Positions 949 through 15,069 of a stretch of DNA of 64,000 bases are shown in pieces (the stretch's first letter is position 1; the number at the start of each line of letters is the position of its first letter). The notes below the pieces were generated by a model, which worked only from the letters and a program-made list of their open reading frames with translations, did no database searches and was not told the DNA's origin. Origin of the DNA: Catenuloplanes atrovinosus (lineage in GTDB: Bacteria > Actinomycetota > Actinomycetes > Mycobacteriales > Micromonosporaceae); the NCBI RefSeq assembly GCF_031458235.1, contig NZ_JAVDYB010000001.1, positions 5,752,001-5,816,000 on the forward strand, given 5' to 3'. The position numbers were made by a program, and so were the translations under genes.

Positions 949-1380
949 TCAGACGTCCAGAATCCTCGCGTCCGGCAGGTACGGCTCGCCGCGCCGGTAC
1001 GGCTTCTGCGGCTTGTGACAGGCCAGCAGGTCCAGCAGCCGGGGGTGCTCGCGCAGATCGACGCCGGCGGCGGTGGCGAACTCGGTCACGTCGGTGAACG
1101 GGCCGCCGAGGTCGCGCAGGTCGACCGCGCGGGAGGCGCCGGCGAGCGTGATGCCGGGCAGGACGGCGAGTTCCGCCGCGGTGGCGGCGTTGACGTCGAC
1201 GCGGTCGACGAACGTGGGCGGCCGGGTGCCGGGCGGCACCACCGGGCGGACCAACTGCTCCTCCGCGGCCGGCGAGCTGGGCGGCGGGAGCGGCGTGGGC
1301 CGGGGCACGGGCACCCCGGCGGCGAACCCGGACGCCCCGGACGGCTCGGACGGGGTGGTAAAGCGTTGCCACCAGCTCAC
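949..1380 (-). CDS. Helix-hairpin-helix (ComEA-like) protein
   Basis: Small protein of about 143 residues. A proline-rich linker is followed by a helix-hairpin-helix module: DVNAATAAELAVLPGI is the typical ComEA-type HhH start, and the second half reads LGGPFTDVTEFATAAGVD. HhH modules bind DNA non-specifically. No signal peptide or membrane segment is evident, so it is probably cytoplasmic rather than a competence receptor. The GTG at 1380 is preferred because a GGAGG (1391-1395, minus strand) lies 10 nt upstream; an ATG at 1407 would put that ribosome site inside the gene. It lies just downstream of the AAA+ ATPase gene on the same strand, so the two probably form an operon. Exact function unknown. 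Confidence 0.75.
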   Translation of the reverse strand: MSWWQRFTTPSEPSGASGFAAGVPVPRPTPLPPPSSPAAEEQLVRPVVPPGTRPPTFVDRVDVNAATAAELAVLPGITLAGASRAVDLRDLGGPFTDVTEFATAAGVDLREHPRLLDLLACHKPQKPYRRGEPYLPDARILDV

Positions 1381-1417
1381 CGGAACGCAACCTCCGCAGA
1401 TGTGCACGGGCCAGAGA

Positions 1418-3001
1418 TCAGAACTCTACGGGCCGCCCGTTGCCGGTGCCCATATCCCAGTCCTCCGGCGCGGTCGCGGCGACCGCGCGGTTGGCGGCCC
1501 AGGTGCGAATGGCCTCTATCCGTTCCGACTGGGTCACGCTGAGCGGCACCGTGTTGGAGACGGCGCGCACCAGGTCGTCACGCTGGAGCGGGCGGCGTTC
1601 CGCGAACGCGTCGTAGAGCGCGGAGACCACGGCCTGCTCGATCTCGGCGCCGGAGAACCCGAGCGTCAGCTTGGTCAGCTCGTGCAGCAGGTCGGGCGTG
1701 AGGTCGAGGCGGCCGGCCACGGCGGGACGGCTGAGGCGGCGGGCGAGGTGAACGGTCCAGATGGCGGTGCGCTCCGGGCCGGTGGGCAGGTCCACGAAGA
1801 AGATCTCGTCGAAACGTCCCTTGCGGAGCAGCTCGGCGGGGAGGCGGTCGATGTCGTTCGCGGTGGCGATGACGAAGACCGGGCGCGTCTTCTCCTGCAG
1901 CCAGGTGAGGAACGTGCCGAGCACGCGCGCGCCGGTGCCGGTGTTGTCGCCGGTCGAGGAGCCGGCGGCGGCCAGGCCCTTCTCGACCTCGTCGACCCAG
2001 AGCACGCACGGCGAGGTGGCCTCGGCGGCGCGGATCGCGGTGCGCATGTTCTGCTCGGACGAGCCGACCAGGCCACTGAAGACCCGGCCCAGGTCGAGGC
2101 GGAGCAGCGGCAGGCCCCAGCCGGCCGCGACGGCCTTGGCGGTGAGCGACTTGCCGCAGCCGGGCACGCCGGTGATCAGCACGCCGCGCGGCGCGGGCAG
2201 GCCCCAGGCGGCGGCCTCGTCGAGCCAGGTGCCGTCCCGGCGGAGCAGCCAGCGCTTCAGGTTCTCCAGGCCGCCGACGTCGGCCAGCCCGGTGTGCGGC
2301 TCGACGAACTCGAGCAGGCCGGACTTGCGTACCGCCTGGCGTTTCTCCTCGTGGACGACGGCCAGGTCGGCCGGGGCCAGCACCGCGTCGTCCACCATGG
2401 CCCGGGCGAACGCGTTCTCCGCCTCGTGCAGCGTGAGCCCGAGCGCGGCCTTGGCGAAGCGCTCCCGGTCGCCGGGCGTGAGCGTGACCGTGATCCGGCC
2501 GGTGGCCACGTTGTCGTCGATCATGCGGTCCAGCAGCGCCCGGATCTCGGTCTCGGCCGGGAGCGGGAAGTCCAGGATCGAGACCTCCTTCTCCAGGTCG
2601 TGCGGGATGTGCAGGCCGGGCGCCAGGATGATCAGCGTGCGCGGGACCGGGCCGGCGCGGAACGCGACCGCCACGTCGCGGAGCAGCCGGACGACCGCGG
2701 GGCCGAGCGTGCCGTGCAGGTCGCAGAAGACGAACACGCTGGGCTCGTCGGTGCGCAGCGCGGCGACGAGCGCGTCCTCCGGGTCGATCGCGCCGCGCAC
2801 GGCCGTGCCGTCCGGCTGGATCAGCCCGCTCGTCGGCGACCACGTGAGCAGCACCCGCGGGGTACGGACCAGTTCCGGATCGCGGGCGACCGCGGCGATT
2901 TCGGCGAGCGCGCGATGTTCCTCGTACGACTCGACGTAGAGGATCGGAATCCGCGCGCGGAATGCCTGCGAGAGGTCGCCCCTGAAACCGCCCGACGGCA
3001 T
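1418..3001 (-). CDS. Ycf46-like AAA+ ATPase
   Basis: 527-residue protein. The N-terminal third ([19 protein letters not shown]...) matches the non-ATPase region typical of Ycf46-type proteins, and the C-terminal half is a classical AAA+ module: Walker A GVPGCGKS, Walker [10 protein letters not shown], sensor-1 VIATAND, arginine-finger region [12 protein letters not shown]. Proteins of this layout occur in cyanobacteria, plastids and actinobacteria; the biochemical role is poorly defined. ATG at 3001 is preceded by GGGGAGG at good spacing. The HhH protein gene follows directly, so an ATPase/DNA-binding partnership is possible but is inference. Confidence 0.85.
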
Positions 3002-3134
3002 CGCATTTCCTCCCCGCAGACGTTCGACCGGCAGAAGAGTAGCAATGAGCCGAAGAGGTGTTGCCTATGCACACCCGGCCCCGTTATTGTGCATCGATTT
3101 TCCAGGGAACTTTCAGCTAGGAGATACTCGAATC

Positions 3135-3362
3135 ATGTCCACCACCCCCGTCGCCGTCGGTCAGAAGTCCTGGGTCGTCACGCTTCTGCTTGAGATCTTC
3201 CTCGGCACGCTCGGCATCCACCGCTTCTACGTCGGCAAGATCGGCACCGGCATCCTGATGCTGATCACCCTCGGTGGCTTCGGCCTCTGGTGGCTCATCG
3301 ACCTGATCCTGATCGTTACCGGCAACTTCAAGGACAAGCAGGGTCTCGCGCTCGCGCGCTGA
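3135..3362 (+). CDS. TM2 domain membrane protein
   Basis: 75-residue protein made almost entirely of a TM2 domain: a first membrane helix ([20 protein letters not shown]), the short conserved turn with G-x-H-R-F-Y-x-G-K, and a second helix ([23 protein letters not shown]). Such proteins sit in the cytoplasmic membrane and have no agreed function. The ATG at 3135 has an AGGAG-type site about 10 nt upstream; the frame is open further upstream, but those codons precede the ribosome site and do not resemble the family. A perfect hairpin follows the stop codon. Confidence 0.88.
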
Positions 3363-3374
3363 GCCGTGGCGTCC

Positions 3375-3407
3375 GGCCCCCGGGATCACCTCGCGATCCC
3401 GGGGGCC
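3375..3407 (+). terminator. Hairpin terminator after the TM2 gene
   Basis: Perfect inverted repeat with 13-nt arms (3375-3387 and 3395-3407) and a 7-nt loop, 12 nt after the TM2 stop codon. There is no U-tract, as is usual in high-GC actinobacteria. Its position also argues against starting the next gene at 3366. Confidence 0.8.
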
Positions 3408-3476
3408 GATCCGTCTCCGGCAGGGAAGATCGTCGGTACGATGCGGGCAGGGTTCCGGCGTACGGCGGAGGCGACG

Positions 3477-4508
3477 ATGGTCTTGGTCAAGGGTCCGGTG
3501 GTCGTCGGCATCGACAACGGCGGCACCGCCAACAACGCGACCGTCCTCACCGCGGCCGGCGAGTTCCTGGTCGACCGCATGGTCGAGATCCCCAGCCGGG
3601 TCAAGGAAGGCCCGGAGCAGGCCGTGACCGCGCTCTCCGACGCGCTCGACAACATCCTGACCGTCACCGGCGTGCCCCGCGACGCGGTCGTCGCCGTCGG
3701 CCTGGACACCCCCGGCCCCGCCACCGCGGACGGCGTGATCTCGCAGAAGGGCTCGACGAACTTCTCCGAGCCCGCCTGGCACGGCTTCGACATCCGCGGC
3801 GCGCTGGAGGCCCGGCTCGGCCTGCCCGTCGTCTACAACAACGACGGCAACGCGGCCGCGCTCTACGCCCACCACGTCTACTTCGGCGCCGCCGCCGCGG
3901 ACACCTCGTCCATCTCCGCGATCGTCGGCACCGGCCTCGGCGGCGGCGTCGTCGAGAACGGCCAGGTCGTCCGGGGCGCCGCGGGCATGGCCGGCGAGCT
4001 CGGCCACGTCACCATCCCGCTGCACGGCCTGATCGAGGACGACCAGCCGCTGCCGACCTGCAACTGCGGCTTCACCGGCGACTCGGAGAGCATCGCCTCC
4101 CTCACCGGCATCGCCAAGAACCTCCTGCCGTACTGGCTGGCCCGCTACCCCGACCACCCGCTGCACGACGAACCCTCCATCATGGCCGCCGCCAAGAAGC
4201 TGCGCGGCATGGCCGAGGCCGGCGACGAGATGGCCCTGCGCGTCTTCGAGCAGCAGGCCACCGCCATCGGCCGCCTCTTCACGGTCGCCGCCAACTTCAC
4301 CGACCCACACGCCTACTTCGTCGGCGGCGGCGTCGTCGAGACCCAGCCCCACTTCCGCGAGTGGTTCATCAAAACCGTCCGCGACCACACCCTGCTCCGC
4401 GCCGAACAATCCGCCGTGGCGACGTTCGCCCTGGTCCCGGACCTGGACATGGCCGGAGCACGGGGCGCGGCGATCGCGGCGCTGGAGCGCCACGTACCGG
4501 GCGAATAA
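3477..4508 (+). CDS. ROK-family sugar kinase (glucokinase-like)
   Basis: About 343 residues. The N-terminal ATP-binding phosphate loop (VVGIDNGGTANNATVL) is followed by the ROK core: the catalytic-region YNNDGNAAALYAHH, the second phosphate motif GTGLGGGVV, and the ELGHVTIP...CNCG segment in which the His and Cys residues are where ROK kinases bind zinc. It likely phosphorylates a hexose such as glucose in the cytoplasm; specificity cannot be read from sequence. I prefer the ATG at 3477, which has GGAGG 5 nt upstream. The longer frame from 3366 would include the terminator hairpin. The gene appears monocistronic. Confidence 0.87.
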   Translation: MVLVKGPVVVGIDNGGTANNATVLTAAGEFLVDRMVEIPSRVKEGPEQAVTALSDALDNILTVTGVPRDAVVAVGLDTPGPATADGVISQKGSTNFSEPAWHGFDIRGALEARLGLPVVYNNDGNAAALYAHHVYFGAAAADTSSISAIVGTGLGGGVVENGQVVRGAAGMAGELGHVTIPLHGLIEDDQPLPTCNCGFTGDSESIASLTGIAKNLLPYWLARYPDHPLHDEPSIMAAAKKLRGMAEAGDEMALRVFEQQATAIGRLFTVAANFTDPHAYFVGGGVVETQPHFREWFIKTVRDHTLLRAEQSAVATFALVPDLDMAGARGAAIAALERHVPGE

Positions 4509-4631
4509 CAGCCTTCATTTCATTCTCCCGCTTCCGGCGGGTCCGGTTCCGCTTGCTCGGAGCGGGCACCGGTCGTCGCTGGCGCTCCTCCCTGCCGGAT
4601 CCGTGGGCGGCCGGGGTCGCCCGCGAGCCGT

Positions 4632-7600
4632 TCAGGGATGACGGGGCGCCCCGGTCTTCGGGCGTCCCGCGACTCCGACACGTCGCGGCGATGGTCCGGC
4701 ACCGACCCCGACATCCTGGGTCCAGTTCGCACGGCCGCCCGGCCGCCACAGCGGGCACCGTTCCGAGTAGCAGCGCCAGTACCAGGCACCGTTCCGCCTC
4801 CGGCGCAGGGCGATCCGGCTCTGCCCGCAGGCGCCGCAGAGCGGTGGCCGGCTGAACTCCCTGGCGTGCTCGTGTTCGAGCAGCTTGCGTGCGAAGTACG
4901 CCCCGCGCATGGTCACCATGACCTCACGCGTCCACGACTGGGAGAGCACGTTGAGGCTTCCGAGCAGCACCAGTTGCTCGTCGATCACCACGATCTTCTG
5001 GTGCATCTCGTTGACCTCGACCACGGTGTCCAGCACGGATCGCAGATCGGCCAGGAACCGCTGATGCGCGGGCTTCTGCTGCAATTGGTCGCTCTCGTCG
5101 CGGACGAACAGCGTGACGCGCACGCCACGGCCCACCGCGTCGCGCAGGACCGGCAGGATCGTGCGGACCCGCGTGGCGGTCCACGGCGCCCACAGCCAGA
5201 TCGAGTGCCGTGCCGCCGCGAGGTGGTCGGCGAACGTGGTGTAGAACTCGCGCTCGTCCTGAATGTCGCAGACCCGGACGTGCTGGGCGAGCAGTTCCGC
5301 GAGCTCGCCGGTGAACGTCCCGGCGAGCTTGGTGAGTTCACCGCTGGGCGTGCTGGTGGGGCTGACCAACTGGTTCGCCCGGATGACGCGCGCGCGTCGC
5401 TGCGCGACGAGATCCGCGATGTAGTGGAACGGCGTACCCTCCGCCGCGGATGCGAGCCGCGTCCGGCTGCCGATCAGGTACAGCCGGTGCTGCGTGCGGG
5501 TGACGGCCACGTTGAAGAGCCGGATGCCGTCGCGCAGGTAGTGGTCCTCGCCCCGGGTCGCCTTGGCCATCCAGCGTTCACCGTAGCCGTCCTCGACCAT
5601 GTCGAAGATGACGATCGGGAACTCACGCCCCTGGAAGCGGTGCGCGGTGCCGACCTCCGTGACGGCCGAGGAATCGGCCTCGTGGTCGCGCAGCGCTTCC
5701 AGCGTCGCCTCGACCTGACGGCCGTACGGCGTGACGATGCCGGTCCGTTCGCCCCGGGCCCGGTGGTAGTCGGACAGCACCCGGGCTAGCAACGCGCCCG
5801 CCGGCCACCAGCCCTTGTGCCAGCCGTCCGGCCGGACGCGCGAGATGTCGCCCAGCTCGTCGACGTCGATGAAGAGGATCTCCGGATCGTTCGCGGGGTG
5901 CGGCCGGACGGACCCGCCCGCCTTGAGGCGGCCGTCGTAGGCGATCGCGTTGGCCAGCCCCATGATCTCGGGTCCGAATCGATGCTGGACGTCCAGCATG
6001 GTGCAGCCCGGGTGCCGTTCCGCGTCGTCCGGCGCCTTTATGCCGCAGTGCGCGAACACGTCGCGGAGGAGCCAGGTCCTCACCTCTTGCCGGTCGGACT
6101 CCTTGACCTGCTTCTCGTCTATGACGGCACCTAGCTGCATGAAGTCGCCGAAGAGCACCGCCGCCCCGGTGGCGCGGGAGACCGCGAGCAGAACCTCCGG
6201 AAGGTTGGCGGCACCGGCCTCGTCTACCAGCACGACGTCGTACGGTCCGTCCATCAGCGGCTTGCTCGTGCGGAGCCGGGCTAGCGTGGTCGCCACCAGC
6301 CGGGCACTCTTGATGATCTCGCCCTCGGCGTCCCGGCTCAGGCGGGCGTACTGCTCATGCACCGTGGTGAACGCCTGCTCCAGCCGGCTCCGCTCCTCCT
6401 CGGCGGCGCTCACACGCGTCCGGAGCACCCGGGCCTGGGCGTCGAGGGCGGGCAACTCGCGCGCGTCTGCGTCCGCGACGAGTGCGCGCTGCGCCTCGGT
6501 CGGCGCCGCCGCCTCCGCGGTGAGCAAGCGCTGCTGGGCCGCGTCGAGGGCGGTCTCCGCCGCCTCCGCGAGCCCGGTTCGGCGGGCCGCCTCCGCGCGC
6601 GCGTCCCGCAGCGCCGCCTCCAGACGGTCGAGGTCCTGACGGGTGTGGCCGGCCGCGTCGGCCGTCCTCCGGATGCGATCCGCCGTCTGCCGGCGATGCC
6701 GCTCGACGAGTTCCCTGGCCTCCTGTGCCCGCAGCCGCGCGTGCTCCGCCTCCGACCGGGCCTGCTCCAGTTCCTGGGCGAGCTTCCTCAGACGGCCCCG
6801 GTTCGTCAGTCGGGACAGCCGGTGGCCGGCGCTCAGCTCCCGGATCTCGGTGTCGATCAGGTCCGCGGCGTGCCGGGCGCGGAGCGCCTGAGCGGCCTGC
6901 CCGTCGGCGGCCTCCTCCAGCGTGGTCAGGTCCTGCCGCATCCGGTCGATGTCCCGGTACGCCTGCCGCGCGGGTTCCCCGGCGGCCCAGCTCTGTTCGG
7001 CGGCGGCACTCCGGCGGTTCGCCTCGTCGGCGCGCGACCGGGCCGACCGTGCCACGTCACGTGCCTCCGATGCCGCCTCGGCGAGCCCGGGCACCGCCGC
7101 TGCCGAGGTGATGGCGCGCCGTGCGAGGTGGTACGCGGCCACGTCGAAGCCGGCCAGCGCGCTGTCGAGCCGGGCCAGTTCGTCCCGCTCCGTACGGATC
7201 CGCACAAGCTGCCGTTCGATCCGGGCGCGCTCCCGGGCGACGGACTCCAGCCGACTCTCCACCAGGGCGGGAAGGCAGACGTCGGGATGCGCGAGCACCT
7301 CCGGGTGATGCGGCGGTCCGACCCGCAGCAGGGCCCCGGGGCGGTGCCGCTTGCTCTTGACGGCGCCGAGCAGGGCGTTGTCCACGGCGATATTGGTGGC
7401 GGAGACCAGCAGCACCCGCTTGCCGCTCCGTACCAGCGTGTCGATCGCCTCGGTGATCACCCTCGTCTTGCCGGTGCCGGGCGGCCCCCAGACCAGGTGC
7501 ACGCCGTGGCCGAGGCAGGCGGAGTAGGCCGCGTTCTGCGCCGGGGTGAAACCGCTGATCTCCCTGGTAGCGGCGGGAGACGGCGCGAGCCGTCCGGCCG

Positions 7601-8060
7601 CCAGCTCGTGCGCCAGTCCGGCGTCGCCGAGCCCGACGATCCCATCGCGCAGCGCGATCAGCAGGTGGATGGGGTCCTGTTTCTCCTGCCAGAGGTGCGG
7701 GTCTTCGATGTCCGCGAACTCCGGGGCCCGGAAGCGGACCGCCTCGCCCTCCTGCACGGCTTCCAGCACCGGATGGGCCGGACCGGACTCGGGGCCGCCG
7801 GGCCCGGCCAGCCGCAGCGACTCGATCTGATCGAGACCGGAGAACCTGGTCCCCCGGAGATCCACCGAGTACCACCCCGGCTCGACGAGCCGGGCCCGCC
7901 CGATCCTCGACGATGTGCCGGACCGCCTCGGGCTCTCCTTCGCGGCGATCCAGACGTCGAGTGCGATGCCCACGAATTCACGCCAGTCCGGCAAGACCGA
8001 CCCCCACCGCGTCTCAGCGAACAACCGCCACGACACTACCGTCAGCAACCGGCCAGGCAC
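4632..8060 (-). CDS. SF1 helicase-PLD nuclease fusion, Mokosh type II-like anti-phage protein
   Basis: About 1140 residues. A UPF1/SDE3-type superfamily 1 helicase carries Walker A GPPGTGKT near residue 192, DEAG (motif II) near 610, motif III GDFMQLGAV, motif V HRFQGREFPIVIFD and motif VI NVAVTRTQHRLYLI. Between motifs I and II lies a roughly 300-residue Ala/Arg/Glu-rich coiled coil. The C-terminal part has one phospholipase-D-type HKD motif (HQKIVVID...GSLN, near 1017) and a final four-cysteine zinc ribbon (CGACGQ...CYSERCPLW). Helicase plus PLD in one polypeptide is the published architecture of type II Mokosh defence proteins (MkoC). The start is uncertain: GTG at 8060 or 8036, neither with a strong ribosome site. 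Codons further upstream overlap the SgcJ-like gene and are not credible. It lies beside an IS element, consistent with an accessory locus. The defence role is inferred from architecture only. Confidence 0.82.
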   Translation of the reverse strand: MPGRLLTVVSWRLFAETRWGSVLPDWREFVGIALDVWIAAKESPRRSGTSSRIGRARLVEPGWYSVDLRGTRFSGLDQIESLRLAGPGGPESGPAHPVLEAVQEGEAVRFRAPEFADIEDPHLWQEKQDPIHLLIALRDGIVGLGDAGLAHELAAGRLAPSPAATREISGFTPAQNAAYSACLGHGVHLVWGPPGTGKTRVITEAIDTLVRSGKRVLLVSATNIAVDNALLGAVKSKRHRPGALLRVGPPHHPEVLAHPDVCLPALVESRLESVARERARIERQLVRIRTERDELARLDSALAGFDVAAYHLARRAITSAAAVPGLAEAASEARDVARSARSRADEANRRSAAAEQSWAAGEPARQAYRDIDRMRQDLTTLEEAADGQAAQALRARHAADLIDTEIRELSAGHRLSRLTNRGRLRKLAQELEQARSEAEHARLRAQEARELVERHRRQTADRIRRTADAAGHTRQDLDRLEAALRDARAEAARRTGLAEAAETALDAAQQRLLTAEAAAPTEAQRALVADADARELPALDAQARVLRTRVSAAEEERSRLEQAFTTVHEQYARLSRDAEGEIIKSARLVATTLARLRTSKPLMDGPYDVVLVDEAGAANLPEVLLAVSRATGAAVLFGDFMQLGAVIDEKQVKESDRQEVRTWLLRDVFAHCGIKAPDDAERHPGCTMLDVQHRFGPEIMGLANAIAYDGRLKAGGSVRPHPANDPEILFIDVDELGDISRVRPDGWHKGWWPAGALLARVLSDYHRARGERTGIVTPYGRQVEATLEALRDHEADSSAVTEVGTAHRFQGREFPIVIFDMVEDGYGERWMAKATRGEDHYLRDGIRLFNVAVTRTQHRLYLIGSRTRLASAAEGTPFHYIADLVAQRRARVIRANQLVSPTSTPSGELTKLAGTFTGELAELLAQHVRVCDIQDEREFYTTFADHLAAARHSIWLWAPWTATRVRTILPVLRDAVGRGVRVTLFVRDESDQLQQKPAHQRFLADLRSVLDTVVEVNEMHQKIVVIDEQLVLLGSLNVLSQSWTREVMVTMRGAYFARKLLEHEHAREFSRPPLCGACGQSRIALRRRRNGAWYWRCYSERCPLWRPGGRANWTQDVGVGAGPSPRRVGVAGRPKTGAPRHP

Positions 8061-8095
8061 TACTACATTTCGATCTACCAGGAGAGGTGCGTCAC

Positions 8096-8533
8096 TCAGT
8101 CGTCCACGAGTGCGGCGGTGTGGGCCTCGGCCAGGTCGGGGCGTTCGTGGTATTGGGCCGGGGTGTTCTGCAGGAGTGCGATGCGCCAGCCGGCCGGGGT
8201 GTGCACGGCGACCACGGACTGCACGGCGTTGAGCGCCGGATGCGGCACGTCCGCGCCCGGCGGCAGCATGCCGGCGATCGCGCGCAGCAGGGCCACGCCG
8301 TCGGCGAGCGGGCGGACCTCGCGGACGCGCCACACGTACGCGGCGGTGGCGTGGCCGGAGAAGACGGGGGTGAGGTGTGCCTCGATCTCCGCGGCCGGGA
8401 CCTGGCTGCCGTCGAAGCCGACGAGCTGGCCGCCGTCCGCGAACAGTGCGGCGAAGGCCGCGGCGTCACGCGTGTTCCAGGCGGTGAGCACGGCCGCGTG
8501 CAGCGCGGTCACCGCCTCCTCGAATGACTCCAT
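8096..8533 (-). CDS. SgcJ/EcaC-type SnoaL-like protein
   Basis: 145-residue protein of the NTF2-like superfamily. The N-terminus (FEEAVTALHAAVLTAWNTRDAAAFAALFADGGQLVGFDGSQ) is the hallmark of the SgcJ/EcaC group, and the C-terminal VQSVVAVHTPAGWRIALLQNTPA is the matching beta-strand end. Members form small cone-shaped barrels; some act in polyketide tailoring, most have no known substrate. It is 35 nt upstream of the helicase-PLD gene on the same strand and could be cotranscribed, though a link in function is not evident. No biosynthetic cluster surrounds it. Confidence 0.8.
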   Translation of the reverse strand: MESFEEAVTALHAAVLTAWNTRDAAAFAALFADGGQLVGFDGSQVPAAEIEAHLTPVFSGHATAAYVWRVREVRPLADGVALLRAIAGMLPPGADVPHPALNAVQSVVAVHTPAGWRIALLQNTPAQYHERPDLAEAHTAALVDD

Positions 8534-8550
8534 CCGCCGATGGTGACATC

Positions 8551-8660
8551 AGAGCCTGTGTCGGCGTCGGGAGTCGGAGCGCGGCGAGGTCCAGGTGTCG
8601 TCCGGGTGCGCGGCGCCCGGGTCGCGCCGCAGCCCGGCATCCCACGCCGACACAGGCTCT
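8551..8660. repeat. 110-bp palindromic element with 17-bp perfect terminal inverted repeats (MITE-like)
   Basis: Arms 8551-8567 and 8644-8660 are exact reverse complements (agagcctgtgtcggcgt), and pairing continues a further 4 bp across a one-base bulge. The interior is GC-rich with no coding potential. The element lies between two minus-strand genes and its right arm abuts the IS481 target site. It may be a miniature inverted-repeat element or an unusually long terminator; no clear flanking duplication is seen. Confidence 0.6.
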
Positions 8661-8663
8661 AGG

Positions 8664-9721
8664 TGTGCTGTCTCGGGACGTTGGTGACGGGTACGGGATC
8701 TTGATGAGGTGAGGACCTTCCGGATAGGTGTGGAGCTACCACAACAGCCGCACCGATCTCAGGAAGGTCCTCATGACGCACGCTAATGCATCCCTGACAC
8801 CGACCGGGCGGCTGCGCCTGGCGCGTTGCGTGGTCGATGACGGATGGCCGTTACGGGCCGCCGCGGCACGGTTCCAGGTCTCACCGACCACCGCACAGCG
8901 GTGGGCCCGCCGCTACCGCGAACACGGACCAGCCGGGATGACCGACCGTTCCAGCCGGCCGCACCACAGCCCCGCACGCACCCCCGCCCCGATCGAGGCA
9001 CACGTCCTCGCGATGCGCCGCGCGCACCGCATCGGCCCTGCCCGCCTGGCCACCCGCGCCGGTATCGCACCGTCGACCGCACACCGCATCCTCATCCGGC
9101 ACGGCGAACCAGTCCTGGCCTGCCTGGACCGAGCCACCGGCGAACCCGTACGCCGCTACGAACGCGACCAGCCCGGCGAACTCGTCCACATCGACGTCAA
9201 GAAACTCGCCCGTATCCCCGACGGCGGCGGACACAAAACCCTCGGCCGACCCACCGGCCGCACCAACCGCAACGGCGCAGGCTACGCCTACATCCACACC
9301 GCCCTCGACGACCACAGCCGCCTGGCCTACTCCGAAATCCTCCCCAACGAAACCGCCGCCACCTGCGCCGGATTCCTACGCCGCGCCACCGCATGGTTCA
9401 CCGCACACGGCGTGCGCGTCCACCGCGTCCTGACCGACAACGCCTGGGCCTACACCAAAAACACCTGGCACAACACCTGCGCAGACCTCGGCATCCAACC
9501 CCGCCACACCCGGCCCTGGCGACCCCAAACCAACGGCAAAGTCGAACGCTTCCACCGCACCCTCACCGAAGAATGGGCCTACCACCAGCCCTACACCACC
9601 GACACCGCCCGCAACAACGCCTACCCACACTGGCTCGACTGGTACAATTACCACCGACCCCACACCGCACTCGGCGGCCACCCACCCGCCCACCGCGTCA
9701 CCAACCTGTCGGGACAGCACA
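8664..9721 (+). mobile_element. Complete IS481-family insertion sequence, 1058 bp
   Basis: Both ends are defined: the left terminal repeat starts TGTGCTGTCTCGGGACGTTG at 8664 and the right one, read inward from 9721, starts TGTGCTGTCCCGACAGGTTG. They match at 22 of the first 26 positions. The 6-bp sequence TCTAGG occurs directly outside both ends (8658-8663 and 9722-9727) as a target duplication. It fits the NCTAGN preference reported for IS481. One intact transposase gene is present, so the copy looks recent and potentially active. Confidence 0.95.
8709..8774 (+). promoter_or_regulatory. Hairpin that would hide the transposase ribosome site
   Basis: GAGGACCTTCC (8711-8721) and GGAAGGTCCTC (8762-8772) form a perfect 11-bp stem, extended by one A-T pair and a G-U pair into the ATG at 8773. 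The right arm contains the only purine-rich ribosome-binding stretch. In a transcript entering from outside the element, this fold would block translation of the transposase. Confidence 0.65.
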
Positions 9722-9726
9722 TCTAG
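8773..9726 (+). CDS. IS481-family DDE transposase
   Basis: 317 residues. An N-terminal helix-turn-helix (RLRLARCVVDDGWPLRAAAARFQVSPTTAQRWARRY) that binds the terminal repeats is followed by an rve integrase core. The catalytic triad is visible as Asp in HIDVKKL, Asp in VLTDNAW and Glu in NGKVERFHRTL. The C-terminal WYNYHRPHTALGGHPP is typical of the family. It cuts and joins DNA at the terminal repeats. The ATG at 8773 is chosen because it directly follows the purine-rich AGGAAGG. The last codon (ATC) and the TAG stop straddle the right end of the element: only the A belongs to the IS, and the rest comes from the duplicated target. Confidence 0.95.
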   Translation: MTHANASLTPTGRLRLARCVVDDGWPLRAAAARFQVSPTTAQRWARRYREHGPAGMTDRSSRPHHSPARTPAPIEAHVLAMRRAHRIGPARLATRAGIAPSTAHRILIRHGEPVLACLDRATGEPVRRYERDQPGELVHIDVKKLARIPDGGGHKTLGRPTGRTNRNGAGYAYIHTALDDHSRLAYSEILPNETAATCAGFLRRATAWFTAHGVRVHRVLTDNAWAYTKNTWHNTCADLGIQPRHTRPWRPQTNGKVERFHRTLTEEWAYHQPYTTDTARNNAYPHWLDWYNYHRPHTALGGHPPAHRVTNLSGQHI

Positions 9727-11290: not shown

Positions 11291-14200
11291 TCACGAGTCG
11301 AGCACGCGTTCGGTCGCCGCGCGCGCCCGCCGGGTGGTCCGCAGGTACTCGTCCACGAACTCCTGCGGGTCGGCGGCGCCGAGCAACTGGACCACGCCGG
11401 CCAGCTCCGGGCCGTGCCGGGGCAACTGGTCGGTGGGCCGGCCGCGGACCAGCGTGAGCGCGTTGCGCACCTCGGCGGCGAGCGTCCAGCCGGCCCGCAG
11501 CGCGGCCGCGTCCGCCGCGTCGACCAGGCCGGCGTCCCGGGCGGCGTCGAGCGCGTCGAGCGTACGGGTGGAGCGCAGCCCCGGCACCGCGTGCGCGTGC
11601 CGCAACTGGACCAGCTGCACCGCCCACTCGACGTCGGCGAGCCCGCCTCGGCCGAGCTTGGTGTGGGTGGCCGGGTCGGCGCCGCGCGGCAGCCGCTCGT
11701 TCTCCACCCGCGCCTTGATCCGGCGGATCTCGGTGATCTGCTCGCGGCTGAGCCCGCCGTCCGGGTAGCGCAGCGTGTCCGCGAGCGCCAGGAACTCGGT
11801 GCCGAGCGCGGTGTCGCCGCAGACGTACCGGGCGCGCAGCAGCGCCTGCGCCTCCCAGATCTTGGACCAGCGGCCGTAGTACGACCGGAACGCGGCGAGG
11901 CTGCGCACCAACGGCCCCTGCCGGCCCTCCGGGCGCAGGTCCGCGTCGATGCCGAGCGGCGGGTCGTGCGCGGGCATGCCGAGCAGCCGGCGCAGCTCCT
12001 CCGCGACCGCGTGGGCGGCGGCGGCCTCTCCGCCGTCGAAGACGAACAGCACGTCCGCGTCCGAGGAGTAGCTCATCTCGTCGCCGCCGAGCCGGCCCAT
12101 GCCGATCACGGTGAACCGCAGGTCCGGGTCGACCCGGTGCACCTCGCGGGCCACCCGCACCGCGGCGGCGAGCGTGGCGTCGGTGACCGCGGAGAGCCCG
12201 CGCGCGACCTCCAGCATGCCGGCGGGCTTGGCCGGGGCCAGGTCGCCCGCGTTGACCAGGATGTCCGCGCAGGCCAGGCGCAGCAGCTCGCGGCGGCGCA
12301 GCGCGCGGACCGCGCCGATCGCCTGGTGCGGGTCCGCGGGTGCGAGGTGGCGCGCGGCCGCGGCGGCGAAGCCGGGTTCGAGCACGTCCCGGTCGCGCGG
12401 CGTGAGTTCCGCGTCGTCGGCCAGCAGGCGCAGCGCCTCCGGGTCGCGGGCGAGCAGGTCGGCCGCGTACCGGGAGAGGCCGAGCAGCCGGGCCAGCCGG
12501 CGCACGACCGGGCCCTCGTCGCGGAGCAGGCGCAGGTACCAGGGCGCGCTGCCGAGCTTGTCGGACAGTTGCCGGTAGCTGAGCAGGCCGCGGTCCGGCT
12601 CGGGCGCGTCGGCCAGTTCCTCCAGCAGCACCGGCAGCAGCGTGCGCTGGATCGCGGCGGTGCGGGACAGGCCGCCGGTGAGCGCCTCGATGTGCCGCAG
12701 CGCGCCGGCCGGGTCCGCGTAGCCGAGCACCTGGAGGCGGCGGCGGGCCGACTCCGGGTACATCCGGAGCTGCTCCGCGGGGACCCGGGCCACGGACTCC
12801 AGCAGCGGCCGGTAGAGCAGCTTGGCGTGCAGGCGGCGAACGCCGGCCGCGTGCGCGACCCAGTCCGCGCGGAACGCCTCGACCACGTCCCGGCCGGGCA
12901 GCGGCGCGTAGCCGAGCGACTGGGCGAGCCAGCGCTGCGCCTCCGCGTCGGCCGGCACGGTGTGCGTACGGCTGAGCTGTTGCAGTTGCAGCCGGTGCTC
13001 GACCGCGCGCAGGAACCGGTAGCCGCGCAGCAGCGTCTCGCCGTCCTGCCGGCCCACGTATCCGCCGTTGACCAGCGCGCGCAGCGCCGGCACCGTGCCG
13101 CCGACGCGCAGCGACTCGTCCACCCGCCCGTGCACGAGCTGGAGCAGCTGCACCGCGAACTCGATGTCGCGCAGTCCGCCGGGGCCGCGCTTGATCTCCC
13201 GGTCCTTCTGCTTCGGCGGGACCTGGTCGATGATCCGGCGGCGCATCTTGCGGATGTCGTCGACCGCCTCCGGCCGCTCGGCCGCGTGCCAGATCAGCGG
13301 ACCGAGCTGGGTGAGCCACTCCTCCCCCAGCGCCCGGTCGCCGACCGCGACCCGTGCCTTGAGCAGCGCCTGGAACTCCCAGGTGCGCGCCCACCGGTGG
13401 TAGTAGGCGAGGTGGCTGGCGAGCGTGCGGACGAGCGGGCCGCGCCCGCCCTCCGGCCGCAGCGCGGCGTCGACCTGCCAGGCGACCTGGCCGCAGATCT
13501 CGATCAGCCGGGCCGCGACCGTGGTGCCGGCCGCGAGATCCTCGTCGCCGCGGCACACGAAGATCACGTCCACGTCGGACACGTAGTTCAGCTCGGTCGC
13601 GCCGCACTTGCCCATCGCGATCACCGCGAGGCTCGGCTCGGCGGGCACCTCCGACACCGCCAGGTCGTACGCGGCGGCCAGCGTCGCGTCGGCCAGCGCG
13701 GTGATCGCGGCCATGGTCTGCTCCAGGCTGCGGCCCGCGGTCAGGTCCGCCGCGGCGATCCTCAGCAGTCCCACGCGGTACGCCCGGCGCAGCGCCGCCA
13801 CCGTCGGCGGCCCCTCCACGTCGAGCGTGCCGTCCGCGTCCGGCGCCACGCCGTTCTTCTCCGTGCACAGCACGCGCCACCGGTCCGGGTCCGCGACCAG
13901 GTCGTCGCCGAGCGGGCCGGACGCGCCGAGCACCGAGAGCAGGCGCCGGGCCAGCCCGCGGTCCCGGCGCAGCGTGCCGAGCAGACCGTCGTCGACCGGC
14001 TCCTCGTGGTGGCGGTGCAGGTGCAGCGCGCGGCGCAGGCGGCCCTCCGGCGGCGGGGGCGGCGTCTCGGCGGGCGGGTGCGCGCGGCGCTCGGCCTCCA
14101 CGACGCGGTGCAGCTGGCGCAGCGCCAAATTCGGATCGGCGACCCGGGACAGCACGGTGAGCAGCTCGCCGGCGACCTCGTCGGCCGGCTCCTGGGCGTC

Positions 14201-14305
14201 CGCGTTCCACAGGCCGAGGTCGCCGAGCAGGTCCGCGGCCTTCGGGCCGGTGCCGGCGAGCGTGAAGCCGTAGCGGGCCAGCCGCGCGCTGGTGGGCCGG
14301 GTCAT
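11291..14305 (-). CDS. glnE: Bifunctional glutamine synthetase adenylyltransferase/deadenylase
   Basis: About 1004 residues, the usual length for GlnE. It has two nucleotidyltransferase halves, each with a paired-aspartate metal site: ELNYVSDVDVIFV near residue 243 (deadenylylation) and EMSYSSDADVLFVFD near 745 (adenylylation), separated by helical GlnD_UR_UTase linkers. It attaches or removes AMP on a tyrosine of glutamine synthetase, tuning ammonium assimilation. ATG at 14305 shares its A with the TGA of the upstream amidotransferase gene (TGATG), implying translational coupling; frame upstream of this is open only because of high GC. glnA2 lies about 4.9 kb away on the same strand. Confidence 0.96.
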   Translation of the reverse strand: MTRPTSARLARYGFTLAGTGPKAADLLGDLGLWNADAQEPADEVAGELLTVLSRVADPNLALRQLHRVVEAERRAHPPAETPPPPPEGRLRRALHLHRHHEEPVDDGLLGTLRRDRGLARRLLSVLGASGPLGDDLVADPDRWRVLCTEKNGVAPDADGTLDVEGPPTVAALRRAYRVGLLRIAAADLTAGRSLEQTMAAITALADATLAAAYDLAVSEVPAEPSLAVIAMGKCGATELNYVSDVDVIFVCRGDEDLAAGTTVAARLIEICGQVAWQVDAALRPEGGRGPLVRTLASHLAYYHRWARTWEFQALLKARVAVGDRALGEEWLTQLGPLIWHAAERPEAVDDIRKMRRRIIDQVPPKQKDREIKRGPGGLRDIEFAVQLLQLVHGRVDESLRVGGTVPALRALVNGGYVGRQDGETLLRGYRFLRAVEHRLQLQQLSRTHTVPADAEAQRWLAQSLGYAPLPGRDVVEAFRADWVAHAAGVRRLHAKLLYRPLLESVARVPAEQLRMYPESARRRLQVLGYADPAGALRHIEALTGGLSRTAAIQRTLLPVLLEELADAPEPDRGLLSYRQLSDKLGSAPWYLRLLRDEGPVVRRLARLLGLSRYAADLLARDPEALRLLADDAELTPRDRDVLEPGFAAAAARHLAPADPHQAIGAVRALRRRELLRLACADILVNAGDLAPAKPAGMLEVARGLSAVTDATLAAAVRVAREVHRVDPDLRFTVIGMGRLGGDEMSYSSDADVLFVFDGGEAAAAHAVAEELRRLLGMPAHDPPLGIDADLRPEGRQGPLVRSLAAFRSYYGRWSKIWEAQALLRARYVCGDTALGTEFLALADTLRYPDGGLSREQITEIRRIKARVENERLPRGADPATHTKLGRGGLADVEWAVQLVQLRHAHAVPGLRSTRTLDALDAARDAGLVDAADAAALRAGWTLAAEVRNALTLVRGRPTDQLPRHGPELAGVVQLLGAADPQEFVDEYLRTTRRARAATERVLDS

Positions 14306-15069
14306 CACTGTCCCAGCAGCGGCAGGGAGCGGCCGGCGCCGCTGAGCGTGCCGAGCGCGAGCGCGGCGAACCGGGCCGCGAACGGCTGCCAGACCTCCTC
14401 CACGTCGGCGAGCGCGGCCGCGCAGGCGTCCACCACGTCCTGCGGCGCGTAGCCGAGGTCGGCCAGCAGCCCGTCGTCCTTGGCGGCCCAGCGGGCGATC
14501 ATGTCGGCGTCGCACTCGATGTGGAACTGCACGCCCCACGCGCGGTCGCCGAGCCGGAACGCCTGGTGCGGATATCGGGTGGAGGCGGCCAGCAGCACCG
14601 CGCCGGCCGGCAGCTCGGTGATCTCGTCCAGGTGCCACTGCAGCACGTCGGGCAGCAGCGGTACGTACCGGAACAGCGGATCGGTGTCCGCGGCGTCCCG
14701 CCGGCCGACCAGGCCCGGGCCGATCTCCGGCCCGGACGGGCTGCGGACCACCGTGCCGTTGTGCGCGGTGGCGAGCAGCTGCGCGCCGAGGCAGACCGCG
14801 AGCGTCGGCGTCCGGTGCCGGACCGCCTTGCGCAGCAGGCTCTCCAGCCGCGGGAACCAGGGCGCCCCGGGTGTGCCGGCCGCGTCCGGATAGGCGCTCT
14901 GCGCGCCGCCGAGCACCACCAGCGCGGCGTAGCCGTCCAGCGTCTCGGGCAGTTCGTCGCCCGCGTGCGGGCGCCGGATCTCCAGGGTCAGGCCCGCCTC
15001 GGTCAGCCACTCGCCGAGTCGCCGGACGTCGTCCGCGGGATCGTTCTCCACCACCAGCGCCGTACTCAC
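14305..15069 (-). CDS. Class I glutamine amidotransferase-like protein
   Basis: 254 residues with a complete GATase1 fold: nucleophile elbow AVCLGAQLLA containing the catalytic Cys, and the His-x-Glu pair in GVQFHIECD. Proteins like this hydrolyse glutamine and usually deliver ammonia to a partner, but free-standing versions next to glnE have no assigned partner. The N-terminus STALVVENDPADDVRRLGEWLTEAGL fits a type 1 GMP-synthase-like domain. Its TGA overlaps the ATG of glnE by one base, so the two are very likely cotranslated. A link to glutamine metabolism is plausible from context and inferred. Confidence 0.9.
   Translation of the reverse strand: MSTALVVENDPADDVRRLGEWLTEAGLTLEIRRPHAGDELPETLDGYAALVVLGGAQSAYPDAAGTPGAPWFPRLESLLRKAVRHRTPTLAVCLGAQLLATAHNGTVVRSPSGPEIGPGLVGRRDAADTDPLFRYVPLLPDVLQWHLDEITELPAGAVLLAASTRYPHQAFRLGDRAWGVQFHIECDADMIARWAAKDDGLLADLGYAPQDVVDACAAALADVEEVWQPFAARFAALALGTLSGAGRSLPLLGQ

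Follow-up and report, generated by a model that had tools for sequence, protein, structure and literature searches.

Mokosh is among the less explained of the defence families, and in MkoC, the protein of its one-gene type II form, the phospholipase D (PLD; HKD) motif and the Walker A motif are both needed for protection. Type II Mokosh is described, in excerpts of PMC11672841 and PMC10013915, as a single gene that joins an N-terminal RNA helicase, COG1112-like according to the former, to a C-terminal PLD nuclease, and an excerpt of PMC11291487 has Mokosh degrading viral transcripts. Here we describe a gene of the same layout in Catenuloplanes atrovinosus, found in a stretch of 64,000 nucleotides (contig NZ_JAVDYB010000001.1, positions 5,752,001 to 5,816,000; hereafter the window, whose own numbering is used for positions). 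We think it probable that the product of this gene is an antiviral helicase-nuclease that stands alone, acts in the manner of type II Mokosh and comes from an actinobacterial branch of its own among UPF1-like helicases. A preliminary description had likened the gene to a type II Mokosh defence system, and this was probably right about defence and about the likely working mode. The family to which the gene belongs is best read as a Mokosh-like, actinobacterial protein of helicase, PLD domain and zinc ribbon that lies several times inside bacteriophage exclusion (BREX) islands.

In the product of the window gene, a UPF1-like superfamily 1 (SF1) helicase with a helical arm is followed by a PLD nuclease domain with one HKD motif and by a zinc ribbon of four cysteines (Table 1), and Pfam, motifs and structural models all confirm the preliminary description in placing these parts in one polypeptide. 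Pfam recognises AAA_11 (1.1e-32), AAA_12 (1.4e-20) and, in the nuclease part, PLDc_2. Conservation was followed in an alignment of 25 rows, comprising the window protein and 24 homologues from actinobacteria and restricted to intact copies. Eight of the 32 clear loci described below are absent from it, namely L020 (cut by a contig end), L032 (whose frame runs on) and the broken or partial copies of L023, L035, L038, L043, L046 and L047. L002 and L003, though intact, also stand outside the alignment; both carry the HKD motif and the four cysteines. K176, T177, D591, E592, R833, H998, K1000, D1005, G1012, S1013 and N1015 are invariant in all 25 rows. The helicase also has a QHRFG motif (residues 670-674, the glutamine kept in 22 of 25 rows) and a VTR motif (residues 831-833). 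There is one HKD motif only, H998-x-K1000-x4-D1005 followed by G1012-S-x-N1015, and it is identical throughout the alignment. The zinc-ribbon cysteines are nearly as constant (C1053 in 25, C1056 in 24, C1075 in 25 and C1080 in 21 of the 25 rows), with the four cysteines of the tail kept in 23 rows. In the structural model, the insertion between motifs I and II consists of 333 residues of long helices, which may form a coiled coil.

An AlphaFold2 model built with the 25 rows (mean predicted local distance difference test score, pLDDT, 82.5; predicted template modelling score, pTM, 0.63) was compared as a whole with the PDB by Foldseek and matched SETX, IGHMBP2, Sen1, UPF1 and Dna2 (best E = 2.3e-23); the SF1 motifs and the UPF1/IGHMBP2/SETX fold together place the protein among the UPF1-like (SF1B) helicases. 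Its N-terminal beta-barrel region has the position of what we take to be the 1B domain of these helicases. Residues 888-1120, modelled separately (pLDDT 83.8), matched NucT (1.1e-7), Nuc (4.5e-7) and Zucchini (1.1e-6), all nucleases with one HKD motif, and also PLD3 (2.3e-7) and TrmBL2 (3.8e-7), a chromatin protein. Both this fold and the HxKx4D motif with its GSxN fit a nuclease of the PLD superfamily, one that would pair as a dimer like Nuc, NucT and Zucchini. Between the window copy and L002, the nonsynonymous and synonymous distances (dN and dS) are 0.177 and 0.694 over the whole gene, 0.077 and 0.526 over the PLD part, and 0.284 and 0.83 over the helical arm, which is the fastest-changing of the five parts measured. 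Because dN is well under dS in this comparison, the gene is maintained under purifying selection.

Table 1. Coordinates of the helicase-PLD gene and of the parts of its product in the window; residues are counted from TTG 7994
Feature	Residues	Position	Strand	Basis
Helicase-PLD coding sequence, 1120 amino acids		4632..7994	minus	Open frame and translation, start in homologues, Pfam; probable TTG start
N-terminal beta-barrel region	28-104	7683..7913	minus	Strands in AlphaFold2 model
Motif I / Walker A, GPPGTGKT	170-177	7464..7487	minus	Invariant in 25/25 rows
Arm of long helices (coiled-coil-like) separating motifs I and II	231-563	6306..7304	minus	DSSP of model, pLDDT about 85
Motif II / Walker B, VDEA	590-593	6216..6227	minus	D591, E592 in 25/25
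RecA2 motif, GTAHRFQGREF	782-792	5619..5651	minus	Alignment
PLD-like nuclease domain	890-1045	4860..5327	minus	PLDc_2 1.8e-10; fold of separate model mb066060b8d77
Single HKD motif, HQKIVVID	998-1005	4980..5003	minus	H, K, D in 25/25
C-terminal four-cysteine zinc ribbon	1053-1080	4755..4838	minus	CxxC-x18-C-x4-C

Helicase then PLD in one chain, recognised here by Pfam AAA_11/AAA_12 and by fold rather than through COG1112, is the layout reported for type II Mokosh, and on this point the preliminary description agrees with the available parts of PMC11672841 and PMC10013915. For comparison we used six plasmid MkoC proteins (L060 and L063-L067, that is, one from a Yoonia plasmid and five relatives); the similarity searches for MkoC covered the plasmid collection and IMG/VR. 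Like the window protein, they are single chains with a UPF1-like SF1 helicase followed by a PLD domain, forming a one-gene system. They are 1127-1176 amino acids long against 1120 for the window protein, and the spacing from Walker A to motif II is 391-431 residues in the six MkoC and 384-425 in 12 family members. The stretch before Walker A differs, with 271-291 residues in MkoC and a shorter 168-205 in the 12 family members. Further, the six MkoC come from plasmids of Pseudomonadota and Desulfovibrionia, whereas the family is found in Actinomycetota. The zinc ribbon is a feature of the family, none of the six MkoC having any CxxC pair, and here the preliminary description had chosen its distinguishing mark well. 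The coiled-coil insertion, its second mark of a subtype, does not serve as one, since MkoC has an equal spacing and CnuH of CoCoNuT has such an insertion too (excerpt of PMC11090510).

One explanation for these likenesses is that the protein is a genuine, divergent type II Mokosh, descended from MkoC, that gained a zinc ribbon. Shared domain order, similar length and equal insertion size would all follow, and by profile-profile comparison the homology to MkoC runs in one stretch that begins at motif II and closes with the PLD domain (E = 1.8e-35). MkoC is also among the three best PADLOC models. However, the top score belongs to the MkoA model (144 bits against 109 for MkoC), and the match to MkoC (PDLC03924) is partial, its best stretch being 850-1104 of 1136; the true MkoC of the Yoonia plasmid scores 1229.6 bits over 1-1134 of the same model. 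BLASTP against the Yoonia MkoC gives 24% identity over a main stretch of residues 583-1018. A tree of the helicase core (23 rows) keeps the family, a clade of 12 rows with support 99/97, apart from MkoC, a clade of 6 rows with support 100/99. MkoC is joined by L054, a caspase-fused helicase, and by L009, a relative of L054; the family groups with a PLD-DUF5710 protein (P0009, see below) and two plasmid helicases. An approximately unbiased (AU) test rejects the family and MkoC as one clade (p = 1.65e-4), with only five other helicases and long branches in the tree. An earlier tree, which held one badly cut row and in which the family was not one clade, rejects it as well (p = 3.9e-5), and a quick full-length tree agrees with the 23-row tree. 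Both helicase trees use 12 of the 25 alignment rows; the 23-row tree omits L052, L053 and the Hhe-like row of the earlier one. Common descent with MkoC apart from other UPF1-like helicases was thus not recovered. Given the differing N-terminal lengths, the partial coverage and the separate clades, we consider descent from MkoC rather unlikely, and the subtype of type II Mokosh suggested in the preliminary description is not supported by the profile coverage, the tree and the AU test. The helicase-PLD fusion likely arose independently of MkoC, to judge from a tree with long branches and few other helicases sampled. A further lineage of helicase-PLD proteins, apparently separate and with its zinc ribbon fixed, would offer an independent test of which parts are essential.

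Other described systems come less close. Mokosh type I provides the best PADLOC score of the window protein, through MkoA, and the PLD part of the L002 copy matches MkoB (1.4e-12); the serine-threonine kinase domain and separate PLD gene of that type have no counterpart here, there being no kinase among the Pfam matches and no conserved partner. In an excerpt of PMC11090510, CnuH of CoCoNuT is a UPF1-like helicase in which a large coiled-coil insertion follows Walker A and which is coupled to nuclease effectors, and CoCoNuT type III-C uses PLD domains. There, CnuH goes with the McrB-type CnuB and the PLD domain sits on a separate CnuE, whereas the present family has no conserved partner in the 36 loci compared, where McrB was not searched for by name, and so does not resemble CoCoNuT type II or III in this respect. 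The best of the other helicases matched in the search of 61 genomes described below is a protein of G020 (P0009; L006:1279-4248, minus strand). Like the family, it joins an SF1 helicase and a single-HKD PLD domain in one chain; it matches the family profile at 1.4e-44 and groups with the family in the trees. Unlike the family, it has a DUF5710 tail in place of the zinc ribbon and a shorter spacing of 282 residues between Walker A and motif II. A plasmid search with P0009 as query gave nothing useful. A degenerate PLD domain in the plasmid helicases L061 and L062, suggested by their tails, was considered and dropped, hhalign being unsupportive (E = 0.022 and 0.11, over short stretches). In the parts of the literature searched, we recognised no description of a helicase-PLD-zinc-ribbon layout.

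The family is patchily distributed. The window genome is complete (8.9 Mb) and has a single copy of the gene; among the 5 genomes examined from the genus, 2 carry it. When 61 genomes (that of the window and 60 relatives) were searched at E 0.001, 32 gave some match, and five were judged to hold a protein of the same type: G000 (100% identity), G001 (74%), G005 (67%), G026 (48%) and G010 (32%). The remaining matches are partial and to other helicases. A first contig scan with a single protein query found no relative; a profile scan of GTDB contigs gave at least 36 loci, at least 32 of them clear relatives (L016-L047), with L048-L051 set aside as weak and all counts being lower bounds. L042 is evidently the same contig as L005. 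Among the matches listed, the clear relatives are all from Actinomycetota, which bears out the actinobacterial scope given in the preliminary description; the hosts belong to Actinoplanes, Streptomyces, Streptantibioticus, Kitasatospora, Nocardia, Herbidospora, Planotetraspora, Actinomadura and Actinorhabdospora. Broken or partial copies occur in 7 of 35 loci (the 32 and L002-L004), namely L004, L023, L035, L038, L043, L046 and L047, where splits into two frames may be assembly errors. The copies of L003 (G005) and L017 (Actinoplanes sp. TBRC 11911) differ by a dS of just 0.161. G005 is of another genus than the window genome and L003 is farther from the window copy; the closeness of L003 and L017 may reflect transfer or kinship of the hosts.

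UPF1/IGHMBP2-like helicases have housekeeping roles, and the gene could likewise encode an RNA- or DNA-processing helicase-nuclease of the cell with no part in defence. Strong purifying selection and the position of the window copy among metabolic genes would suit such a role. Its presence in only 2 of 5 genomes of the genus and 5 of 61 more widely, the differing sites within the genus, the broken copies and the defence genes in some flanks make it decidedly unlikely.

Gene neighbourhoods were compared at 36 loci (the 32 clear relatives, the window and L002-L004) by all-against-all BLASTP of rough gene calls, which were based on GC content at third codon positions and contain errors. The helicase-PLD gene has no obligatory neighbour, because no other gene family occurs in more than 6 of the 36 loci. 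In some cases the gene lies within a BREX island: genes of type 2 BREX (Pgl) are present in 6 of the 32 loci (L016, L019, L024, L026, L042 and L043). At L019 and L024 it lies between PglY and PglX, divergent from PglY; at L026, a locus near-identical to L024, it adjoins PglY; at L042 it is divergent from PglW; and at L016 and L043 it abuts a presumed BrxHI, a name inferred from the PADLOC tally of neighbours. A PglY remnant stands beside L023. Elsewhere we placed Wadjet JetC with DUF2398 beside L027, an Hhe/PDC-S37 protein beside L033 and an AbiU-like protein beside L034, which brings defence neighbours to 9 of 32 loci, or 8 of 31 if L024 and L026 are counted once. DrmD-like SNF2 proteins beside L028 and L031 were rejected as DISARM, being partial matches to many SNF2 models, and were not counted. 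Near the Herbidospora homologue, an nSTAND1-WD40 protein of 1489 amino acids (L021:13899-18368, plus strand) had no PADLOC match; nSTAND1-WD40 proteins are often met in conflict systems.

A Pgl system has reportedly been studied in Streptomyces, and from the copies nested in several Pgl/BREX clusters one would expect some BREX islands of actinobacteria to carry an additional nuclease effector. One alternative reading makes the protein an auxiliary effector of type 2 BREX, repeatedly recruited, whose stand-alone copies are remnants or have moved on. BREX genes at six loci and the remnant beside L023 fit it, and an excerpt of PMC12839542 has BREX loci carrying auxiliary nuclease effectors. The same excerpt, however, places HKD nucleases mainly in BrxL (type 1) and type 2 BR helicases and does not name the protein described here. 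Of the 32 loci, 25 have no BREX genes in the flanks available and one has a remnant only, and the window copy has none; this is not the distribution of a core component of type 2 BREX, since a core subunit should not stand alone. We regard this auxiliary role in BREX as unlikely.

We read the family as probably one of defence because its domains, invariant motifs, folds and profile homology to MkoC suit such a role, and because it has no obligatory neighbour, is patchily present, stands at different sites within one genus, includes broken copies and has defence genes among its neighbours. The association with BREX can be bounded without a control: if each host of 8 Mb has one BREX locus of 20 kb, chance would put this locus within 20 kb of flanks in about 0.5% of cases (all sizes assumed), and 0.16 of 32 loci are expected against the 6 seen, with a Poisson probability of 2e-8, or 6e-4 if there were only three independent recruitments. 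Ten neighbour proteins searched by tblastn against 12 arbitrary 20-kb control stretches of relatives found nothing. At E 1e-25, PADLOC recognised among the 120 nearest neighbours BrxHI (2), BrxC, PglX, PglW, PglZ, BrxD and JetB (1 each), SngC, DpdJ and DpdF (2 each), PDC-S02 and mad3 (1 each) and broad matches such as kinases. This tally covers 25 of 43 matching families, SngC, DpdJ, DpdF and PDC-S02 are not assigned to loci in it, and it omitted 2 of 122 proteins, both known matches (the Hhe-like protein of L033 and PglX of L042). Among 115 control genes (1 of 116 open reading frames omitted), the matches were to mad3 (4), RTasHel (2), several UvrD-like GajB models, PDC-S01 (1), a subtilase, IetA and mad8, and none was to BREX or Wadjet.

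Several observations weigh against a defence role or limit how far it can be pressed. No recognised defence gene lies beside the window copy, as judged by Pfam on its neighbours and by PADLOC on glnE only, and BREX, Wadjet, Hhe and AbiU queries found no match in the 64-kb window. A strong defence neighbour was placed in none of the other 23 of the 32 loci. With so small a control, the comparison of 9 of 32 with 0 of 12 yields p = 0.040; treating the near copies as one (8 of 31) yields p = 0.054, and BREX alone, at 6 of 32, yields p = 0.13. The neighbour proteins scanned singly were hand-picked by size, and the control stretches were not clean, with PDC-S01 at 2.5e-171 and four mad3 against one among the neighbours. 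RNA and DNA cannot be told apart as substrate from sequence, and the antiviral activity of the family is predicted. Thus the defence proposed in the preliminary description finds support in part of the family, which sits among defence genes, and none beside the window copy; a defence-free context, which that description had named as speaking against it, is what the window copy has and what the family, with defence neighbours at 9 of 32 loci, does not.

The PLD fold as a rule needs two HKD motifs. For the substrate, dimerisation, trigger and antiviral outcome we infer the following sequence of events. The UPF1-like motor would load onto single-stranded RNA or DNA exposed during phage infection, perhaps helped by the zinc ribbon, which would bind the nucleic acid, and the helical arm, which sits where UPF1 has its 1C insertion, may gate this loading or join subunits. 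Two chains would pair through their PLD domains, because one HKD motif per chain amounts to half an active site. ATP-driven movement could then feed the bound strand to the PLD site, where phage transcripts or replication intermediates would be cut.

At the window locus, the gene is flanked by a ROK-family gene (3366-4508, plus strand) and a SnoaL-like gene (8096-8533, minus strand), and glnE (11291-15010, minus strand) lies 3 kb away. Nothing in the base composition at the gene was judged unusual, and a promoter and terminator scan for it found none. An IS481-like insertion sequence (IS) element (rve, LZ_Tnp_IS481) has 31-nt inverted ends at 8659-8689 and 9696-9726. The preliminary description had the gene next to an IS element; such an element is indeed nearby, about 665 bp from the gene, yet the SnoaL-like gene intervenes and the element is incidental. 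An imperfect palindrome of 110 bp (8551-8660) adjoins the element, and both fall inside a stretch missing from G001. At the counterpart in G001 the IS481-like element is absent, with less than 20 bp between the matching sides, and it is a separate insertion, probably a later one. The element was rejected as the carrier of the gene, being absent at the matching place in G001; the DNA that the copy in the window shares with the copy in G001 also breaks off at roughly the limits of the gene (window 4699-8063). These same observations tell against a wider proposal, in which the gene serves a mobile element (IS or phage) for attack or maintenance and does not serve the host. The nearby IS481-like element and a gene beside L003, presumably a transposase, would agree with it. 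Against it, neither a search of 50,697 phage records (E 1e-10) nor the IMG/VR scan matched the helicase-PLD protein, and a plasmid search gave four weak partial matches, one of them a true MkoC. We hold this origin to be highly improbable.

Two members of the genus carry the helicase-PLD gene at two different sites near glnA/glnE. In G001 the slot of the window gene is a gap of 442 bp, and the gene instead follows glnA directly, at the edge of an inverted block; a single inversion was rejected as an explanation of the positions in G000 and G001, since the gene orders do not fit. Inversion affects the block up to window 19048 in G001 and a portion of this block, window 949-4575, in G003. The slot between the ROK and SnoaL genes is filled in G002 and G004 by a RidA-like gene and a WYL-regulator gene (Pfam names from G002), a pair absent at this place from the window genome, which has the helicase-PLD gene there (window 3366-8533 compared with L078:5922-7458 and L080:9881-11437). 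A similar RidA/WYL-type pair occurs at an altered place in G003.

Just downstream of glnA in G004, at the place taken in G001 by the PLD-type gene, lies a gene for a caspase (Peptidase_C14) joined to a UPF1-like helicase (1182 amino acids; L080:2130-5678, minus strand), with a neighbour of 135 amino acids that has no Pfam match (L080:5675-6082, minus strand). This fusion would be a second kind of effector carried by the same helicase scaffold. Downstream of glnA, 2 of the 5 genomes of the genus (G000-G004; L071 and L078-L081) carry genes for UPF1-like helicases of different type, and this region is possibly an insertion hotspot. A broader reading, plausible and more tentative than the antiviral helicase-nuclease proposed above, is that we have here an unnamed single-gene defence system of Actinomycetota, its fusion independent of MkoC and its zinc ribbon a third part, that has been taken repeatedly into type 2 BREX as a second-line nuclease; together with the caspase-helicase of G004, this would suggest that UPF1-like helicases are a general sensor scaffold for PLD, caspase and kinase effectors.

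Finally, the frame of the gene lies on the minus strand, which the preliminary description had not stated; it terminates at 4632 and stays open upstream to GTG 8333. That start was dropped since it overlaps the SnoaL-like reading frame (8096-8533), and GTG 8060, the start in the preliminary description, which would give a longer product of 1142 amino acids, was dropped since the closest homologues begin where TTG 7994 stands. We prefer TTG 7994 because it fits the homologues better than GTG 8060. The protein then opens with LPDWRE, against LPDWRD in L002, L003, L016 and L017, where the earliest possible start codon of the frame matches TTG 7994 exactly. Most other homologues open with GWREE or GWQEE at this position, and five divergent rows of the alignment differ; in nine loci whose frames run further upstream, the start was assigned by hand from this opening motif. 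In 14 of the 23 plus-strand loci checked, the frame has its earliest start codon precisely where TTG 7994 stands.

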